This document shows, one piece after another, positions 20,038 to 32,967 of a stretch of 36,655 nt of DNA. The position numbers and the translations under genes are program-made. Under the pieces are notes generated by a model that ran no database searches, was not told the DNA's origin, and saw only the letters and a list, made by a program, of their open reading frames with translations. Source of the stretch: Phycisphaerae bacterium. Its GTDB lineage: Bacteria > Planctomycetota > Phycisphaerae > Phycisphaerales > SM1A02. How positions within the stretch are numbered: the first letter of the stretch is position 1; each line of letters starts with the position of its first letter. Location of the stretch: positions 1 through 36,655 of the forward strand of contig PBMX01000007.1 of assembly GCA_002722935.1 (NCBI GenBank), read 5' to 3'.

Positions 20038-21096
20038 CTAGTCTGAAAGAAGTACCACGTCCGATGGGTCCACGTGAAGGTGCACGGTGCCCTCGCCCAC
20101 CTCATCACCTGGATTGAGGTGAAGCGTTCGAACGATCTCGCCACCGATTTCAACGAGGTGCTGCGCCTGGTCTCCCAGGAAGATCTGCTCGGAAATCGTC
20201 CCCGAGAAGACGTTGTTCTTCCCAGGCTTGGATACCTGCTGGAAGGCTTCGGGCCTGATGGAACACGTTACCCGTGCATCAGCAGCCCAGTTCTGGCCTG
20301 AACTTGTCGCGGAAAGCGTACCGGCAGGCGTCTCCAGCTTGACCGTATCTCCCTTTGAGGAAACCACTTGCGCCTGGAAGAAGTTGGTTTCTCCAAGGAA
20401 CTCAGCGACGAATCGAGATTCCGGCCTGCGATAGAGAGAGCGGGGGGGACCAAGTTGACGGACCGTGCCCTCCTTCAGAACAGCAATCCTGTCGGCCATG
20501 GACAAGGCCTCGTCCTGGTCATGGGTCACGTAGACCGTGGTTATTCCACTGGCCTTGCAGATACGCCTGATCTCCGTACGCATGTCCAAGCGCAGCTTTG
20601 CATCGAGGTTGCTCAATGGCTCATCCAGGAGCAGGACGTCGGGCTTGATGACAAGTGCCCGGGCAAGGGCCACTCGCTGTTGCTGGCCTCCGGAGAGTTC
20701 ATTGGGCTTCCGCTCACAATATCCACCCATCTGGACCATCTCGAGGGCTTCCTCGATGCGTTCCTCGCGCTGGGCCGGGGGCAGTTTTCTCAATACCAGC
20801 CCATACCCCACGTTTTCAGCCACGGTCATGTGCGGCCAAAGGGCGTAACTCTGGAACACCATTCCCGTGTTGCGGCGATTGGGTGGGGAATCGGTTACGT
20901 CTTGTTCATTGAAGTGGATGCGTCCAGCCGTAGGATCGATGAACCCGGCGATCATTCGCAGCAGAGTGGTTTTTCCACACCCGGACGGACCCAGGAGAAA
21001 GAACAGTTCGCCCGGCTCGATCACGAGGTCGATGCCGTCCACGGCCCGCGTCAGGCCATAGTGCTTCTGGATGCCGGAAAGTCTGATCGAAGTCAT
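20038..21096 (-). CDS. ABC transporter ATP-binding protein (MalK/PotA/FbpC type)
   Basis: The protein is 352 aa from MTSIRLSGIQ at 21096. A longer open frame to 21528 overlaps dciA and has no family similarity. Walker A GPSGCGKT is at 36-43, followed by the Q-loop MVFQSYALWP, signature LSGGQQQR, Walker B VLLLDEPLSNLD and the H-loop YVTHDQDEA. The C-terminal quarter (IRPEAF onward) is a TOBE-type regulatory domain. This group energises uptake of sugars, polyamines or iron. No permease or binding protein gene is adjacent, so it is an orphan ATPase and its substrate cannot be assigned. Confidence 0.9.
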   Translation of the reverse strand: MTSIRLSGIQKHYGLTRAVDGIDLVIEPGELFFLLGPSGCGKTTLLRMIAGFIDPTAGRIHFNEQDVTDSPPNRRNTGMVFQSYALWPHMTVAENVGYGLVLRKLPPAQREERIEEALEMVQMGGYCERKPNELSGGQQQRVALARALVIKPDVLLLDEPLSNLDAKLRLDMRTEIRRICKASGITTVYVTHDQDEALSMADRIAVLKEGTVRQLGPPRSLYRRPESRFVAEFLGETNFFQAQVVSSKGDTVKLETPAGTLSATSSGQNWAADARVTCSIRPEAFQQVSKPGKNNVFSGTISEQIFLGDQAQHLVEIGGEIVRTLHLNPGDEVGEGTVHLHVDPSDVVLLSD

Positions 21097-21111
21097 GCAG
21101 GACAAACGATA

Positions 21112-21124
21112 CCACTTGCAGTGG
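21112..21124. promoter_or_regulatory. Inverted repeat in the ABC ATPase/dciA divergent spacer
   Basis: CCACT and AGTGG arms flank a three-base centre in the 75-bp region between the two divergent starts. It is directly next to a -10-like TATCGT on the minus strand (21111-21106) placed nine bases before the ATPase ATG. It could be an operator. The binding protein is unknown. Confidence 0.3.
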
Positions 21125-21171
21125 GGAAATGATGGTCTGCCCACGACGGTTCCTCCTGTAGGATGCTCCTG

Positions 21172-21558
21172 ATGTCCAACACCCCCGTTACAGAGCGTCT
21201 CCAGCAGTTGCAGGCCTGGCGAGGGCCCCGCCGGAAGACGGCCTCCATGGGCGAAACCGTCGCATCCCTCCAACGGACCGCCGAGAAGGCCCACCAGCAA
21301 CTGGGCTCCTTCGTGGAAGCCTGGGACGAACTGCTTCCCGAGGAACTTTCTTCCCAGACGAGTGTCGAGGCCAGACGAGGCGGCGTCGTTCATGTTCGAG
21401 CCAGAAGCGCCTCCGTCGCATGGGAGCTTGATCGTCGCCTGCGGGAAGGACTCCTCGGGGAACTGCGCAGCAGGTGCTCGGGCGCCATCTCCCGAGTTCA
21501 GGTCCGGGTCGGCGGACAGGTGCGTCACGATGCCGTTCGACGACCAAGGACTGCATGA
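21172..21558 (+). CDS. dciA: DciA/DUF721-type replication protein
   Basis: The protein is 128 aa from the second ATG at 21172, preceded by AGGA with an eight-base gap. An in-frame ATG at 21163 is less well placed. The LGSFVEAWDELLPEELSSQTSVEARRGGVV pattern followed by VRARSASVAWELDRRLREGLL matches the DUF721/DciA fold, which helps load the replicative helicase in bacteria lacking DnaC. It sits among origin-type genes, in keeping with that job. Its last bases overlap the thioesterase start (ATGA). Confidence 0.75.
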   Translation: MSNTPVTERLQQLQAWRGPRRKTASMGETVASLQRTAEKAHQQLGSFVEAWDELLPEELSSQTSVEARRGGVVHVRARSASVAWELDRRLREGLLGELRSRCSGAISRVQVRVGGQVRHDAVRRPRTA

Positions 21559-25573: not shown

Positions 25574-26352
25574 CGACCCTCGAGAAGACGATCGCCCAGC
25601 CAGTTGCTCAACTCGGGAATGGCGTGGATCTTCTTGACGACCGAGTCGACATCGTATGGAAGCCGATGGAACTCGACATGTGATTGCGTTTCATCAAGCA
25701 CCGCGTAACTGGCTCTTGGGTCCATGTCACGGGGTTGACCTACGGAACCGGGGTTGATGATGAGAAGATCATCGCCTTCGAGCTTGTAGACCGAGTCGAC
25801 ATCCTCGGGCGGATAGAAATCGGGCTCATTGGTGAATACGCCGGGAACATGCGTATGGCCCACCATGCACCACTTCTGGACTCGGTCGAAGATCTGCTGC
25901 ATCTTGACCGGCGAGTTGATGGCGTCTTCAGGGAAGATGTACTCGTTGATGGGTCGACGGGGCGAACCGTGAACACAGAGGAAGTCGCCGAAACTCACGC
26001 GAACCTTCAAGCCGCCGAGAAACTCCCAGCGACGGGCGGCCGCTTCCTCGTCGGGCTCCTTCTCGAACTGGGCCCGGGTCCAGTAGGCGGCCTGCTCGGC
26101 CGCGGCATTGAAGTTGGTCGGCTCGTAGAGCGCTCCGTAGTCATGGTTTCCCAGGAGGGACCATTCGCAGACCTCGGCAACCCGGTCCACGCAGGCCACG
26201 GGGTCCGGTCCATACCCGAGGATGTCACCGAGGCAGATGATCCGGTCGACATTGCGGCCTTCTATGTCCGCAAGGACGACTTCGAGGGCCTCGAGGTTGC
26301 CATGGATGTCACTGACGATTGCCGTCCGCACGGGGGCGTCTCCTCCCGACAT
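25570..26352 (-). CDS. Calcineurin-like metallophosphoesterase (YfcE/ApaH group)
   Basis: The protein is 260 aa. The metal motifs are SDIHGN near the N-terminus, LGDILGYGPDP, LLGNHDYGA, VHGSPRR and GHTHVP, with NPGSVGQPRD near the end, the full set for a two-metal phosphodiesterase. The substrate is unknown: nucleotides or phosphodiesters are typical. It is the first gene of a minus-strand operon with yidC (overlapping) and mnmE. The start has no clear ribosome site but lies close to a promoter. Confidence 0.88.
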   Translation of the reverse strand: MSGGDAPVRTAIVSDIHGNLEALEVVLADIEGRNVDRIICLGDILGYGPDPVACVDRVAEVCEWSLLGNHDYGALYEPTNFNAAAEQAAYWTRAQFEKEPDEEAAARRWEFLGGLKVRVSFGDFLCVHGSPRRPINEYIFPEDAINSPVKMQQIFDRVQKWCMVGHTHVPGVFTNEPDFYPPEDVDSVYKLEGDDLLIINPGSVGQPRDMDPRASYAVLDETQSHVEFHRLPYDVDSVVKKIHAIPELSNWLGDRLLEGR

Positions 26353-26363
26353 GGGAAACGAGG

Positions 26364-26393
26364 ATGCTATGCCCTTGGATACCGCACCGTCAA
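26364..26393 (-). promoter_or_regulatory. Putative promoter of the phosphoesterase-yidC-mnmE operon
   Basis: On the minus strand TTGACG (26393-26388) and TAGCAT (26369-26364) are separated by 18 bases. The predicted start near 26357 would leave a leader of only about five bases before the ATG at 26352, which has no ribosome site. Confidence 0.45.
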
Positions 26394-26427
26394 TGTCGGC
26401 TGAGACACCAAGCTCGGGGCCTCACCG

Positions 26428-26433
26428 TACAAT
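26428..26433 (+). promoter_or_regulatory. Putative -10 element for lpd
   Basis: TACAAT lies 38 bases before the lpd GTG, leaving room for a normal leader with its GGAG ribosome site. No good -35 box is seen at the usual distance. The divergent phosphoesterase promoter is about 35 bases away. Confidence 0.35.
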
Positions 26434-26471
26434 GCTCGACCTTCAACCCCCCAGGAGCCTGGAGTACACGC

Positions 26472-27947
26472 GTGCCTGATTCAAAGCATTACGATCTCGT
26501 CGTCATAGGAAGCGGCCCCGGAGGCTACGTCGGGGCCATTCGTGCCGCCCAGATGGGCATGAAGACCGCCGTGATAGAGCGGAATCGCCTCGGTGGCGTC
26601 TGCCTGAACTGGGGCTGCATTCCCAGCAAGGCCTTGTTGCACAATGCCGAGCTCTGGAGCGAAGCGGTGACCCACGGGGACCAGTGGGGCTTCTCCTTCG
26701 AGAAGGCGACCCTCGATTTCCAGAAGGCGATCGGGCGGAGCCGCGGCGTCGCCGACAAGCTCAATACGGGCGTTGGATTCCTCCTGAAGAAGAACAAGAT
26801 CGATCACATCGAGGGGCACGCCACGATCACCTCGGGCGCCGAAGGAGGCACGCCATGCTCGATCGACGTGTCGAGCGCCGACGAGAACTACTACCACGGT
26901 ACGGGTGGCGAGGTTCGTGAAACCATCACGGCCGACAAGATCATCATCGCCACCGGCGCCGCTCCGAAGGAACTTCCATTCGCTCCGTTCAACGGAACGA
27001 CCATCGTCGGATCGCACGACGCCATGGTGCTGCCGAAGCAGCCCGAGAACCTGGTGGTCATCGGTTCCGGTGCCATCGGCATGGAGTTCGCCTACTTCTA
27101 CAACGCGATCGGTACGAAGGTCACGGTCGTCGAAATGCTGGACAGGATCCTCCCGGTGGAGGACGAGGACGTGTCCAAGGCGGCATTGAAGGCGTTCAAG
27201 AAGCAGGGGATCACGTTCCACGTCGGAAGCATGACCACCGCCATCGAGACCGATGGACAGGGAGCAACCGTCACGATCCAGGATGCCCAGGATGAATCGA
27301 AGACCCAGCAACTCCGGGCCGACGTGGTTCTCGTTGGAATCGGCGTCGCCGGCCGCTTCGAGGGCCTCATCGGCGACGGGCTCGACCTGCAGGTCGAGCG
27401 GGGGCATATACAGACTGATGCGCAGAGCGCGGACGAGCCGACCTATGCCACGAGCGTTCCCGGCATCTACGCCATCGGCGACGTGATCGGTCCGCCGTGG
27501 CTCGCCCACGTCGCCTCGGAGGAGGCCGTGACGTGTGTCGAGCGCATGGCTGGACACCACACCCTCGGGGTCGACTACAACTCGATACCCGGATGCACCT
27601 ACACGAACCCGCAGGTCGCCTCGATCGGAATGACCGAACGAGCCGCCCGGGACGCGGGGGTCGAGTACACCGTCGGCACTTTCCCGCTGAGTGCGCTGGG
27701 CAAGGCGATCGCGGTCGGACAGACCGAGGGCTTCGTCAAGATCATCGCCTCAAAGCCCTATGGCGAGATTCTCGGTGCACACATCATCGGAAAGGACGCC
27801 TCGGAACTGATCCACGAGTTCTGCCTGGCCATCCGGCTGGAAGCCACTGCCGAGGACATCATCTCGACCATGCACGCCCACCCGACGATGGCCGAGTCGA
27901 TCCACGAGGCGGCGCTTGGAACCGAATCACGAGCCATCAACTTCTGA
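26472..27947 (+). CDS. lpdA: Dihydrolipoyl dehydrogenase (E3)
   Basis: This flavoprotein reoxidises the lipoyl groups of 2-oxoacid dehydrogenase complexes with NAD. The protein is 491 aa from a GTG with GGAG seven bases upstream. A longer open frame to 26319 has no similarity. GSGPGGYVGAI binds FAD, GGVCLNWGCIPSKALL holds the redox disulfide (Cys44 and Cys49), and VIGSGAIGMEFAYFY binds NAD. TSVPGIYAIGDV and the HAHPTMAES catalytic His/Glu motif follow near the end. No E1 or E2 gene is nearby. The M16 peptidase follows by twelve bases. Confidence 0.96.
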   Translation: MPDSKHYDLVVIGSGPGGYVGAIRAAQMGMKTAVIERNRLGGVCLNWGCIPSKALLHNAELWSEAVTHGDQWGFSFEKATLDFQKAIGRSRGVADKLNTGVGFLLKKNKIDHIEGHATITSGAEGGTPCSIDVSSADENYYHGTGGEVRETITADKIIIATGAAPKELPFAPFNGTTIVGSHDAMVLPKQPENLVVIGSGAIGMEFAYFYNAIGTKVTVVEMLDRILPVEDEDVSKAALKAFKKQGITFHVGSMTTAIETDGQGATVTIQDAQDESKTQQLRADVVLVGIGVAGRFEGLIGDGLDLQVERGHIQTDAQSADEPTYATSVPGIYAIGDVIGPPWLAHVASEEAVTCVERMAGHHTLGVDYNSIPGCTYTNPQVASIGMTERAARDAGVEYTVGTFPLSALGKAIAVGQTEGFVKIIASKPYGEILGAHIIGKDASELIHEFCLAIRLEATAEDIISTMHAHPTMAESIHEAALGTESRAINF

Positions 27948-27959
27948 GCCTGGATTCCC

Positions 27960-29174
27960 ATGACGGACTTCAAAGAGCATGTTCTCGACAACGGCCTCCG
28001 AATCGTGGCCGAGATCGACGAACACGCCTTCTCTGCGGCGATGGGCTTCTTCGTCAAGACCGGCGCCCGTGATGAAACATCCGAACTGATGGGCGTCAGC
28101 CATTTCCTCGAGCACATGATGTTCAAGGGCACGCAGCGACGATCGGCCGCCGAGGTGGACCGGGATTTCGACGACATCGGTGCCAGGCACAACGCCTGGA
28201 CGAGCAGCGAAATGACGGCATTCCACGCGCATTGCCTCCCGAGGCATCTACCCGAGGCCGAGGACATCCTGTCCGACATTCTTCGGCCCGCCATTCGCGA
28301 AGACGATTTCAACGATGAGAAGAGCGTGATTCTCGAGGAGATCGCGATGTACGCCGACCAGCCGTTCTGGAGACTCTACGAACGGTCGCTCGAGTCCTTC
28401 TACGGTGACCATCCCCTCGGTCACCGGGTCCTGGGCACGAATGAAACGGTCGGTTCGATGCAGCGTGATGCGATGGCCGAGTACTTCGAACACAGGTATT
28501 CCGCGGACAATACGATCGTCGCCATGGCGGGCTGCCTCGACTTCGATGAAATGGTCGGGCGACTGGACACGCATTGCGGCGACTGGAAACGGACCAATGC
28601 GGATCGATCCTACGTCGACGCTGATCATGCCGATACGCGCTTCGATGAGAAGGACGAGCAACTCGCACGTCACTATTCCTGCATGGTCTGCCCCGGTCCC
28701 TCTCTCCAGTCCGACCAGAGGTACGCGGCTGGAATGCTCGCACACATCCTCGGGCACTACGAGGGCTCGCGCCTGTACTGGGCGATGGTCGAACCCGGGC
28801 TGGCCGAGGAGGCTCAGTGCCAGTTCAACGGTCGTGATGGTTGCGGCGAATTCATCCTCTGGCATGCCTGCAGCCCCGAGAATGCCTCCAGGTGCGAAGC
28901 CATCCTCCTGGAAACCCTCGGTGACCTGGTCGAATCCCTGTCCGAGAGTGATCTCGACCGGGTCCGAAGCCTCGCAGCGACTGCCGCGACCGTCGCCGGT
29001 GAACTGCCCGCCGGCCGAATGCAGCGGCTCGGACAGCTCATGACTTCGACCGGAACCTACCGGAGCCTGGACGAGGACCTTGACCGGATCCGCGACGTGA
29101 CCCTCGATGACCTGGTCCGGCTCGTCGAAGCCTTCCCCCTGACCCCGGTCGTGACGGGAACGCTCGGGCCCTGA
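27960..29174 (+). CDS. M16-family zinc peptidase (processing peptidase-like)
   Basis: The protein is 404 aa. The inverted zinc motif HFLEH is at 48-52, with the downstream glutamates in ILEEIAMY near 125-128, so it should be catalytically active. MGVSHFLEHMMFKGTQRR, the GARHNAWTSSEMTAFHA stretch and FYGDHPLGHRVLGTNE are the family landmarks. The C-terminal half is the paired non-catalytic domain. M16 enzymes degrade peptides or process precursors. It follows lpd closely and is probably cotranscribed. Confidence 0.92.
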   Translation: MTDFKEHVLDNGLRIVAEIDEHAFSAAMGFFVKTGARDETSELMGVSHFLEHMMFKGTQRRSAAEVDRDFDDIGARHNAWTSSEMTAFHAHCLPRHLPEAEDILSDILRPAIREDDFNDEKSVILEEIAMYADQPFWRLYERSLESFYGDHPLGHRVLGTNETVGSMQRDAMAEYFEHRYSADNTIVAMAGCLDFDEMVGRLDTHCGDWKRTNADRSYVDADHADTRFDEKDEQLARHYSCMVCPGPSLQSDQRYAAGMLAHILGHYEGSRLYWAMVEPGLAEEAQCQFNGRDGCGEFILWHACSPENASRCEAILLETLGDLVESLSESDLDRVRSLAATAATVAGELPAGRMQRLGQLMTSTGTYRSLDEDLDRIRDVTLDDLVRLVEAFPLTPVVTGTLGP

Positions 29175-29233
29175 AGGTTCGACCTGATCGACGCCGAACA
29201 TGACCTTCGGACATGCTATGCTCCGGGCTGGCG

Positions 29234-31303
29234 ATGACAACCACTCCAGGCACCAGGGGCATGATGCCCGCCGATGTGAATCACAGGCTCGATGAGCATG
29301 CCTTCGTCGACGCGGTGCTCGACCTCCAGAAGACAGTTCCACTGCCGGATGTTCCGGAGAAGGCGTGGGAGCAGCTCCTTACTGCAGCCTACGACCTGGC
29401 CTTCGCCTATCTCCACGACCAGCATCTTGATCATGAACCTGGCTGTTCGAATCCGGTCGCCTCGCGCTTCCTTGAAACGGTGTTCAGCGAGGATGGACCG
29501 GCGCTCGATGAGACCGGCCTGGCGACATTGCATGAAACGGTTCTCGAGCGAACTCCCGTCTACGACAGGAGTGGCTGCCTCGAGGCCATGGAACGCGATC
29601 GGGGAAGGCGGGAACGAATGGGAGCGTTCTACACGCCCGACCATGTCGTTGATTCGCTGCTTGAACGTTCACTTGATCCGCTGCTCGACATCGCGGAACA
29701 ACAGGACGACCCGGTGCGAGCAATGCTGCAGCTGCGCATCTGCGATCCGGCCTGCGGCTCGGGGCATTTTCTCGTACGAGCCGGCGAGCGCCTGGCGCAG
29801 CGAGCGGCGAAGTACGTTCACGAACGAGATGTTCACTGGGTGAGGGTGAACGCCTTCCGTGACTGTCTGTACGGCGCCGAACTTGATCCTGTCAGTGCCC
29901 ATGTCTGCAAGCGACGCCTCTGGAGCCTCGCCGCGGACTCGCAACTCTGCCCCTCGAGCTTCGATCAACGCATCCTTGCCGGGCATGGACTCCTTGGAGC
30001 CCTCCCGGGTACGGGGACGCTGGCTGAATGCGATGCCTGGACCGCTGAACGACTCGACGAGGAGACCGTCGAGGCCTTGAAGCCGGTCCACTGGCATCTC
30101 CTCGTGGAGGATGGATTCGACCTGGTGATCGGGAACCCCCCCTTCATGAACCAGCTTGCTCGTGACACCAGCATGGACAGGCGCCTGGCAACCCTGCTTC
30201 GGGATCGGTTCGGGGACGTGGTGAAGGGCTACCCGGATGTCGCCAACATCTTCCTCCGTCTGGCCGCCGACCTGGTGCGCCCGGGCGGTCGCATCGCACT
30301 CCTGCAACCGTGGTCCGTCCTCTCATCCCGTGATGCCGGGGGCATCCGCCGGGATCTTGCAAGGCGCTTGCGGATGACCGACCTCTGGGTTGCACTCGAA
30401 CACATCTTCGATGCGGGAGTGCATGTCTGCGCTCCGGTTCTTGAAAGGACGATGGAACGGAAAGGCGTTCTTCACAGGACCTCGGGAGCGGGCTTCGAAC
30501 CTGCTGAAGACATCCAGCTCGACATGGATGTCCTTGCCGACGAAGACACCTGGTCCGGCCTTGTCAGCGATCTCATGGGCATCCCCAGGATCGATGTATC
30601 CAGGCATGAGACACTGGACCGGATCGCGACCGCGACCGCCGACTTCCGTGACCAGTACTACGGCCTGAGGGGATGCGTCCAAGATGCACTGCATGAACGC
30701 CCCTCCGCCAACTGCGTGCCGCTCATCACGACGGGGCTGGTCGATCCGGCAACCTGCCGATGGGGCAGGAAGGTGACACGCTACGACGGTCGTCGATGGA
30801 ACCGCCCACAGGTGAATCTCCAGGAACTTGCCGCCCGGACCGAACTCGAGCCCTGGGCCACGTCGAGGCTGGTCCCGAAACTGCTGCTTGCGACACAGAC
30901 GAAGGTGCTCGAGGTCTACGTCGATGAAGACGGCGCCTGCCTTCCGCTGACCCCGTTGATCACGATCATGCCCCTCGATCCAGGCATGCTCTGGCACCTG
31001 GCGGCCGCCCTTGCCTCCCCGGTCTGCACGGCCCTGGCGGCCGGACGCTACCTGGGTGCTGCCCGAAGCACGAATGCAATCAAGTTGTCGGCCTCGCAGG
31101 CACTCACCCTCCCGATGCCAACCGTGCAGGACCAGTGGGACGCAGCTGCGAGTGCATTCCAGGCGGCTTCCGCCGCAGGGGATGATGCAGTTCGCCTTGA
31201 CCATCTTCACGAAGCCGCGATGGCATCCTGCCTGGCCTATGGATGCGGCAAGGAGCGGTCCAAGATGCTCCTGGACTGGTGGAAGGACCGATTGCCCCGT
31301 TGA
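29234..31303 (+). CDS. Solitary N6-adenine-type DNA methyltransferase
   Basis: The protein is 689 aa from the ATG at 29234. Alternatives at 29213 and 29261/29264 cannot be excluded. Motifs: RMGAFYTPDHVVD (motif X) near 128-140, DPACGSGHFL (AdoMet-binding motif I) near 171-180, GAELDPVSAHV (motif II) and DLVIGNPPFMNQ (catalytic motif IV, NPPF) near 301-304. The C-terminal third resembles the target-recognition part of Eco57I/TaqI-type enzymes (NAIKLSASQALTLPMP). No PD-(D/E)xK nuclease motif is visible in its N-terminus and no restriction gene is adjacent. It lies among housekeeping genes, 59 bp after the peptidase and convergent with recO. Confidence 0.85.
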   Translation: MTTTPGTRGMMPADVNHRLDEHAFVDAVLDLQKTVPLPDVPEKAWEQLLTAAYDLAFAYLHDQHLDHEPGCSNPVASRFLETVFSEDGPALDETGLATLHETVLERTPVYDRSGCLEAMERDRGRRERMGAFYTPDHVVDSLLERSLDPLLDIAEQQDDPVRAMLQLRICDPACGSGHFLVRAGERLAQRAAKYVHERDVHWVRVNAFRDCLYGAELDPVSAHVCKRRLWSLAADSQLCPSSFDQRILAGHGLLGALPGTGTLAECDAWTAERLDEETVEALKPVHWHLLVEDGFDLVIGNPPFMNQLARDTSMDRRLATLLRDRFGDVVKGYPDVANIFLRLAADLVRPGGRIALLQPWSVLSSRDAGGIRRDLARRLRMTDLWVALEHIFDAGVHVCAPVLERTMERKGVLHRTSGAGFEPAEDIQLDMDVLADEDTWSGLVSDLMGIPRIDVSRHETLDRIATATADFRDQYYGLRGCVQDALHERPSANCVPLITTGLVDPATCRWGRKVTRYDGRRWNRPQVNLQELAARTELEPWATSRLVPKLLLATQTKVLEVYVDEDGACLPLTPLITIMPLDPGMLWHLAAALASPVCTALAAGRYLGAARSTNAIKLSASQALTLPMPTVQDQWDAAASAFQAASAAGDDAVRLDHLHEAAMASCLAYGCGKERSKMLLDWWKDRLPR

Positions 31304-31321: not shown

Positions 31322-32077
31322 TCACGTACCGGCCGAAGAGGAACTCAACTCGGGGAACGCCCATCGCATGGCTGCAGGCTCCTCGCCGAGGAGGTCGCGT
31401 GCATATACGGCCAGCAGTCGATTCGCACGTTGAACCACCTCGTCGTCGACGGCCATCGACGACGTGTCCGCATCGAGCGAACGAAGGAGTCGTATCGTCT
31501 CGGGACGGACGCGCCAGCGATCAGGCGCTCCCGTGTCGGCCACGGTCCCCCCACGCGTCGAACTGAAGCCGACCGCATCGAGCGTCTCGTCGAGCAGTTC
31601 ACCTGTCTCGACATCATGATCAAGTACCGGCCTGTATCCGCAGGAACACAGGAGCTGCCATTGGAACACGAGAGTGGCTCGTGCCGTTTCCCCCTTCAGA
31701 GCACACCTCGCGAGGGCCGCCTCGAGGGCATCGAAGACCTCGGGGTGGGGATCGTGGGTCGTCAACATCCTGTTGACGAGATCGACCATGTAGAGGGAGG
31801 CGCGATTCGCCGCCAGGTCCTGTCGAAGAGCTCGATGAACCTTCTCCAGGTGCCATGCCGTAAGGAGGGCCAGATCACGGCTGGGCTTCAGGATGGCGAC
31901 GATCTGGCCGCTCGTGAGCGGGTCGAACCCCCCCGAAAAGGAACTGTTGGCCCGCTTGGCTCCCTTGGCAAGCCCACGCAGAAGCCCATGCTCCCTTGTC
32001 AGGAGGCTGACTGTCTGGGATGTCTCGGAGAAATCCCAGCACCGGAGGCACACTGCGCTGTCGGTCAAACTGGCCAC
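31322..32077 (-). CDS. recO: DNA repair protein RecO
   Basis: RecO anneals strands and helps load RecA in the RecFOR pathway. The protein is 251 aa from a GTG at 32077. The N-terminal OB fold is recognised by AVCLRCWDFSETSQTVSLLTREHG, LLRGLAKGAKRANSSF and the LKPSRDLALLTAW stretch, followed by the helical bundle. Many relatives have a four-cysteine zinc site after LCSCGY. Here the following region reads RPVLDHDVETGEL, so that site appears lost. The divergent parA starts only 32 bp away. There is no clear ribosome site. Confidence 0.85.
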   Translation of the reverse strand: MASLTDSAVCLRCWDFSETSQTVSLLTREHGLLRGLAKGAKRANSSFSGGFDPLTSGQIVAILKPSRDLALLTAWHLEKVHRALRQDLAANRASLYMVDLVNRMLTTHDPHPEVFDALEAALARCALKGETARATLVFQWQLLCSCGYRPVLDHDVETGELLDETLDAVGFSSTRGGTVADTGAPDRWRVRPETIRLLRSLDADTSSMAVDDEVVQRANRLLAVYARDLLGEEPAAMRWAFPELSSSSAGT

Positions 32078-32109: not shown

Positions 32110-32967
32110 ATGGCCCGGGTCATAGCGATGCTGAATCAGAAGGGTGGTGTCGGCAAGACCACATCGGCGGTCAACCTGGCAGCCGCCCTCGCCAGTCGCG
32201 GACAGCGCACCTGCCTGGTCGATCTGGATCCGCAGGCCCACATGAGCCTGCATGTAGGTCTTGACCCGGACGAGGTGGGCTGCACGGTCTACGACCTGCT
32301 GATCGATCGGGACCGGAACATCGAGGACGCCATCGTGAACGTCGACGAACGGCTTGATGCCATCGTCTCCGAAACGGACCTCGCCGCGGCCGAGACGGAA
32401 CTGGCTGGACAGGCCGGGCGACACGATATTCTCGCCAGTGCCTTCAGTTCAATCGCTGATCGATACGACGTCGTGATGATCGACTGCCCCCCGAGCCTCG
32501 GGGTGCTCACCCTCAATGCCCTGGCCATGGCCGACGAGGTCTTCGTCCCGATGCAGGCTCACTTTCTCGCTCTCCAGGGCGTCGGAAAACTCCTTGAAAC
32601 GGTCGGGCTGGTCTGCCAGTCCGCCAATGAACGACTGCAGGTCACGGGGATTCTTCTGTGCATGCACGACAAGCACACCAACCTCGCGCGTGAAGTGGTT
32701 GATGATCTCGAGTCGTTCTTCGCGGAGGCGCGAGACACCGACCTTCCATGGCGGAATTGCAGGGTCCTCCTGCCCCCCGTGCGGCGAAACATCAAGCTTG
32801 CGGAAGCTCCGAGTTTCGGCCAGACCATCTTCCAGTATTCACCCACCAGCCACGGGGCGCGTGACTACGGAAAACTTGCCGACGGTCTGCTCGAACGATG
32901 GAACCAGGACGGGTCCGGCGAAGAGGAGATCTCCGAAGAGGCCTCCGAGGCGCAGGGCGTCACGTGA
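32110..32967 (+). CDS. parA: Chromosome partitioning ATPase ParA (Soj)
   Basis: The protein is 285 aa from MARVIAML. It has the deviant Walker A KGGVGKTT (11-18, both signature lysines), LVDLDPQAH, Walker B VMIDCPPSLG and the PVRRNIKLAEAPSFGQTIF segment, all typical of Soj-type ParA. It binds DNA non-specifically when ATP-bound and moves ParB-parS complexes. An acidic tail (GSGEEEISEEASEA) ends the protein. Its gene is about 12 kb from parB and in an operon with the VanZ-like and murJ genes. MinD-type proteins are excluded by the lack of a C-terminal membrane helix. Confidence 0.92.
   Translation: MARVIAMLNQKGGVGKTTSAVNLAAALASRGQRTCLVDLDPQAHMSLHVGLDPDEVGCTVYDLLIDRDRNIEDAIVNVDERLDAIVSETDLAAAETELAGQAGRHDILASAFSSIADRYDVVMIDCPPSLGVLTLNALAMADEVFVPMQAHFLALQGVGKLLETVGLVCQSANERLQVTGILLCMHDKHTNLAREVVDDLESFFAEARDTDLPWRNCRVLLPPVRRNIKLAEAPSFGQTIFQYSPTSHGARDYGKLADGLLERWNQDGSGEEEISEEASEAQGVT

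Follow-up and report, generated by a model that had tools for sequence, protein, structure and literature searches.

A stand-alone gamma-class adenine-type DNA methyltransferase kept in most genomes of several Phycisphaerales genera

What does a DNA methyltransferase do when it stands alone in a neighbourhood of housekeeping genes? The question is raised by a plus-strand gene at positions 29234–31303 of a 36,655-nucleotide stretch of DNA from a Phycisphaerae bacterium (contig PBMX01000007.1), the whole of which is called the window. A sequence-only reading had described the product as a solitary adenine-type methylase without the look of a defence gene, which could mark DNA for cell-cycle or repair purposes as CcrM and Dam do. 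The first part of this description is supported, as no restriction neighbour was found and the family is near-core in six genera, while the second part is not supported. The enzyme is probably a stand-alone gamma-class DNA adenine methyltransferase without a cognate nuclease, and its mark would have a standing function in the cell.

The gene is an intact open reading frame of 689 amino acids with orthologues at 83, 62 and 55% identity, and at 57–58% in two further genomes. An in-frame ATG occurs at 29213, 21 bp 5' of the start at 29234. Because the orthologues keep the latter (residues 1–2 are M-T in 4/4 aligned orthologue rows, and the open reading frame of genome G002 starts exactly there), we place the start at 29234. 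The complete set of methyltransferase motifs claimed earlier is real, and all of them could be located. Motif X (FYTP, residues 132–135, 29627–29638) aligns with CamA in such a way that F132 and Y133 fall on Y30 and Y31. The SAM-binding motif I (DPACGSGHF, residues 171–179, 29744–29770) has D171, G175 and G177 invariant in 21/21 alignment rows, and the catalytic motif IV (NPPF, residues 301–304, 30134–30145), placed on NPPY of CamA, is present in 42 of 44 rows and invariant in all 21 rows of the smaller alignment. The target-recognition-like end, also claimed, is borne out by the AlphaFold model, in which a C-terminal region (about residues 411–630, 30464–31123) has fold matches to CamA, MmeI, BrxX and M.BseCI, followed by terminal helices (residues 631–689, 31124–31300). 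Two family signatures of the 21-row consensus lie at residues 468–478 (TADFRDQYYGL, 30635–30667), part of which was one of the two search patterns used to gather relatives, and at residues 545–560 (RLVPKLLLATQTKVLE, 30866–30913). The order X, I, IV, recognition domain is that of gamma-class amino-methyltransferases of the TaqI/CamA type, and the protein passes the Pfam cut-offs of Eco57I (5e-12), N6_Mtase (9e-10) and MmeI_Mtase (3e-8).

The AlphaFold2 model was computed from a 21-row alignment of the window enzyme and 20 relatives from genome contigs, and reached a mean pLDDT of 83.1 and a pTM of 0.83, with residues 1–123 mostly below 60. In Foldseek the first 30 of the best 50 rows are CamA entries (E down to 6.5e-21), followed by M.BseCI, BrxX/PglX, MmeI, M.TaqI and further CamA rows. 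VIA-align also puts CamA at the top (Z 29.7 over 490 residues, model residues 89–671), ahead of MmeI (26.4), BrxX (25.3), M.BseCI (24.7) and M.TaqI (22.7). CamA is the orphan sporulation adenine methylase of Clostridioides difficile, a gamma-class enzyme with the asymmetric site CAAAAA, in which the flipped adenine is stacked by Tyr30 and Tyr168; like the window enzyme it is an orphan and core in its own lineage (PMC8187626). It also provides the best long fold match. On the other hand, identity on the structure is only ~15%, motif X is at residue 132 here but at residue 30 in CamA, and CamA is found in all genomes of one species while the present enzyme is near-core in several genera. At the sequence level, phmmer joins the two proteins in two weak pieces (E 1.2e-5).

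The remaining fold matches bring restriction-modification (R-M) enzymes into the picture. M.TaqI and M.BseCI have the same motif order and fold (Z about 22–25), but these type II gamma-class methylases stem from R-M systems, whereas no nuclease partner was found for the window enzyme. Type IIG/IIL enzymes such as MmeI have the methyltransferase and recognition fold in common with it but are fused proteins; the alignment starts at MmeI residue 182, past the MmeI nuclease domain. In the window enzyme the N-terminal ~120 residues (29234–29593) are poorly conserved, modelled as helical at low confidence and without a match in Pfam or PADLOC, and [DE]xK is absent from the first 130 residues in 5/6 orthologues. 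On these grounds we rejected an N-terminal nuclease: neither the model nor the profiles nor the motif scan revealed the PD-(D/E)xK domain of type IIG/IIL enzymes, as the sequence-only reading, which saw no nuclease motif, had supposed. Some relatives have longer N termini (1057 residues in L121, 950 in L116), and no nuclease profile matched the stretches tested of L121 (Pfam and PADLOC) or L116 (PADLOC only); type IIG restriction-methylase profiles do match the methylase part itself in these stretches. The Ferrithrix relative at L121 (3825–6998) carries an N-terminal extension of ~390 residues without a convincing family match and could be a fused form.

Around the gene, the arrangement is as first described, with an M16 peptidase upstream and recO and parA downstream. 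On the plus strand, a dihydrolipoamide dehydrogenase-type gene (Pyr_redox, lpd-type; 26319–27947), whose true start is probably further in, precedes the M16 gene (27960–29174), and the 59 bp between M16 and the methylase contain no plus-strand promoter- or terminator-like site by what is a weak test. Convergent with the methylase, recO (31322–32077, minus strand) ends 18 bp past its stop codon; then come a parA-type ATPase gene (32110–32967, plus strand), a VanZ-like gene that stays under the Pfam cut-off, and murJ. A Pfam scan of eight neighbours and ten further window proteins, one of them the transcription terminator Rho at ~25 kb from the methylase, found no nuclease, restriction or phage gene, in agreement with the claim that none lies nearby; these 18 are a part of the 96 open reading frames of at least 120 residues that the window holds, overlapping frames included. 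No cognate restriction gene was found either among the neighbours scanned here or, one cluster in genome G039 apart, in the flanks sampled in other genera. One reading frame of the window, 5–1663, is doubtful, since a tRNA-Thr (ggt) lies within it on the minus strand (1422–1493).

The distribution of the family depends on the level at which it is viewed. With an 8-row profile at E 1e-20 or better, 57/181 genomes of the GTDB family match, in 9/45 genera; as the other 124 give no match at this threshold, the gene is not a family-wide housekeeping gene, and its presence stays below half of the family, a level that orphan status does not require. By genus, the counts are 3/3 in the window's own genus (g1), 3/3 in g7, 15/16 in g60, 12/14 in g25, 8/9 in g34 and 11/16 in g61. 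Taken together, 52 of the 61 genomes of these six genera carry the family, as do 27/29 of those at least 90% complete and at most 5% contaminated, the six having been picked for their hits, with only three genomes each in g1 and g7 and with three other genera with hits (g2, g35 and g55; five genomes) left out of the genus counts. Sporadic presence, which the sequence-only reading had regarded as typical of mobile restriction systems, therefore describes the GTDB family as a whole but not the six genera. A single-sequence search over 301 genomes of the order returned 70 at E 1e-25 or better. In a 44-row tree, each of the six genera has its sampled rows together, split off by a branch from the other groups.

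This pattern is that of known orphans. Blow et al. (PMC4752239) report 57% of orphan methylases as conserved at genus level, against 9% of those in R-M systems, and the contrast recurs in Halobacteria (Fullmer et al., PMC6471742). Presence in at least 50% of the species of a genus (PMC4752239) is reached here in the own genus and over the six genera alike. The conserved orphan families described in 2016 by Blow et al. (TTAA in Arthrobacter, ATCGAT in Nocardiaceae, Dam and CcrM) are likewise solitary and conserved at genus level, a likeness in behaviour, but they occur in other lineages, and the string 'planctomyc' does not occur in the main text of that paper (PMC4752239). In its behaviour the window enzyme matches what Blow et al. 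call an orphan methylase, and the solved structure closest to it is that of CamA.

The orthologues are under purifying selection in g1 and g7, with dN/dS of 0.084 between the window genome G000 and G001 (dS 1.35) and of 0.17–0.19 within g7 (dS 1.07–1.26), most dS values being near saturation and those of other pairs nearer still. Within g7 the methylase evolves faster than its neighbours (70–75% identity, against 78–82% for M16 and 82–86% for recO); between G000 and G001 the values are 83.5 for the methylase, 83.7 for M16 and 89.2 for recO. Mean identity between groups is 16% for residues 1–120, 34% for 121–260, 37% for 285–410, 43% for 455–630 and 26% for 631–689 (887 pairs of 44 rows, one being the duplicate L117/G128, and with low-overlap pairs dropping out). 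For residues 285–410 and 455–630, the figures are 80% and 72% within g1, and 66% and 63% between g1 and g7. Overall, conservation of the recognition-like C-terminal half at least roughly equals that of the catalytic core, although it is the recognition domain that usually diverges most in R-M methylases. The target site of the family is therefore probably old and shared, as far as conservation can tell, and the conserved residues could also be structural.

In the other genera the family occupies different loci, with flanks that are common within a genus among the loci fetched. The gene rplT flanks the relative in 5/5 loci of g60, upp adjoins it in 4/4 of g34, and in g25 an aspartokinase-type gene (lysC) is found in 5/5 and bipA in 4/5, the fifth contig ending at the methylase; in g61 all four loci have a flanking gene in common with another, and L225 has both flank types. 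Five Nocardioidaceae-type loci also have neighbours in common (a NAPRTase/isochorismatase-type reading frame and NUDIX-NrtR), and a DEAD-box helicase flanks two copies in Actinomycetota (L119 and L122). Among the flank proteins of these other loci Pfam found no restriction gene outside one cluster in genome G039; apart from that cluster the proteins with a match are of housekeeping type or helicases, several having no match.

Because the gene is kept in most genomes of several genera with no cutting partner adjacent, it more probably serves the cell than defence, and standing cellular methylation is the more likely role over restriction. Mechanistically, the C-terminal recognition region would bind one short, probably fixed DNA sequence, and FYTP and NPPF would line the pocket into which an adenine is flipped to be methylated at N6 using SAM. 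The enzyme would act without a cognate nuclease, and its mark would most likely tune gene expression or DNA transactions, as that of CamA does. We infer the catalytic activity, the adenine target, the fixed motif and the regulatory role alike.

The enzyme might instead be the surviving or separated half of an R-M system, its nuclease lost or far away, and the methylase protecting the host or merely lingering. We consider this unlikely. The closest architectures include type IIG/IIL and type II R-M enzymes, some type II systems have their partners far apart (PMC4752239), and our nuclease search across carrier genomes covers HSDR_N in one genus only. That type I restriction marker, however, is itself sporadic there (3/16 g60 genomes, where the same search finds it in 9/14 control genomes), and a remnant is hard to reconcile with a family retained by most genomes of six genera, with flanks common within genera and with purifying selection in g1 and g7.

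Marking of DNA for cell cycle or repair through transient hemimethylation, in the manner of CcrM and Dam, is improbable as well, even if the enzyme is solitary, near-core within genera and, in g1 and g7, close to recO and parA. Palindromic gamma enzymes such as M.TaqI exist. The likeness to CcrM and Dam is nevertheless off by class, Dam being alpha and CcrM beta (PMC8187626), whereas the motif order here is neither of these but gamma, and the nearest fold, CamA, has an asymmetric site and therefore no hemimethylated state (PMC8187626). The neighbourhood argument fails too: recO is on the opposite strand, other genera keep their family members at unrelated loci (rplT, upp, lysC/bipA), and the history of the locus accounts for the proximity. 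Many genomes of the order have M16 and recO close together. In several genomes without an orthologue of the methylase (G017, G007, G022 and G037) an HDOD-GGDEF gene lies between the two, identified from the translations in these four and by Pfam for the G008 copy only, and in G010, G013 and G019 no reading frame separates them. The methylase directly follows M16 in all six g1 and g7 genomes, and in four of these (G002, G008, G183 and G184) the HDOD-GGDEF gene stands between methylase and recO, being missing from this position in G000 and G001. As it still separates methylase and recO in those four, the methylase was most likely inserted next to M16, a later loss then bringing it close to recO and parA in the window; we infer a single insertion at the M16-(HDOD-GGDEF)-recO locus before the split of g1 and g7. 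A functional linkage to recO/parA was accordingly rejected, the closeness following from the insertion site. In a further genome (G020; L091, 1213–4800) two consecutive long reading frames, HDOD-GGDEF-like by reading, lie between recO and M16, perhaps through tandem duplication.

It is very improbable that the enzyme belongs to a BREX, DISARM, Dpd or MADS-type defence system, or shields the host from the restriction of others. The best PADLOC profile is DrmMI of DISARM, but its 83 bits come from a partial match to a profile of 1347 positions, and drmA, drmB, drmC and drmD were not found among the neighbours scanned; mad2 follows with 50 bits. In NCBIfam the enzyme scores 50 bits for BREX-2 PglX against a cut-off of 400, with no brx neighbours among the proteins scanned, and 25.5 for MAD2 against 720. 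Of ten window proteins run against PADLOC, two matched: parA, weakly (25 bits), and an ABC/TOBE transporter-type ATPase at 20038–21528, 7.7 kb from the methylase, which matched mad3 (106.6 bits, over the 91 residues 264–354 only). The same ATPase also matches mad8 and AriA, and all three matches probably reflect the shared ATPase core. Neither Pfam nor PADLOC recognises a partner gene beside the methylase, and the flank proteins elsewhere that have a Pfam match are, as described, of housekeeping type or helicases. Defence contexts are not foreign to the family, however: in the exception, the G039 cluster, a relative of the C-terminal half (45% identity), split over two reading frames, comes after a DpdE-like SNF2 helicase. 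Besides this helicase and the DrmMI/type IIG-like methylase, whose two frames overlap, the cluster (L101, 204–11164) holds a second type IIG-like reading frame and another with a weak LmuB match.

That the substrate is RNA or protein instead of DNA is scarcely credible: NPPF-type motifs occur also in RNA and protein glutamine methylases, but the best 50 matches listed in each fold comparison are all DNA methyltransferases or R-M enzymes, many of them DNA-bound, and the best of them, CamA, spans the recognition region too.

The stand-alone orphan favoured here would represent a new lineage-specific family of conserved orphan methyltransferases, a kind already known; the literature matches listed include no characterised orphan methylase from Phycisphaerales, which is a weak statement. 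Its nearest tree relative outside g1 and g7 is an Acidimicrobiales gene (L113, 40% identity), on a branch with support 94/94, just below the tool's mark for a firm branch, which suggests, from the tree, a transfer between phyla at some time. It is possible, and we offer this only tentatively, that Phycisphaerales have in this family a lineage-core epigenetic writer, with branches also in Actinomycetota, whose recognition region, and with it the DNA motif, stayed constant across phyla while the chromosomal address changed between genera. It would then be a CamA-like regulatory methylase, rarely transferred and retained afterwards for a task in the cell. A real mark would offer a planctomycete entry point to regulation by DNA methylation, and should the recognition region prove as fixed as it appears, one cultured Nocardioides methylome could name the site of the family. 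The six m6A motifs of the Kuenenia methylome (PMC5854607) offered themselves as a source, but borrowing one was rejected: the matching record, a metagenome-assembled genome titled Candidatus Kuenenia stuttgartiensis (L117, CAMDMA010000002.1), has a methylase identical to that of G128, a genome of the window's own GTDB family, and the title is therefore probably wrong.

Among mobile elements, three phage records match the enzyme, over 31% of the query, and none of 74 loci in viral contigs spans it in a scan limited by two short patterns (the longest covers residues 115–567 at 21%). As no relative spanning the query was found in either set, a phage or viral origin was rejected. Mycobacterial MamA was considered and may yet be a relative, although of the 80 retained loci the two from Mycobacteriaceae match residues 87–258 only. 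Plasmid records with a match number 117, none covering 80% of the query. The top match is on a Georgenia plasmid (72% of the query at 36% identity), where the annotation reads 'N-6 DNA methylase'. An HNH-motif protein is encoded 1.9 kb downstream of that gene, and an ATP-dependent helicase at the margin of the region inspected, so that this copy is perhaps not solitary.
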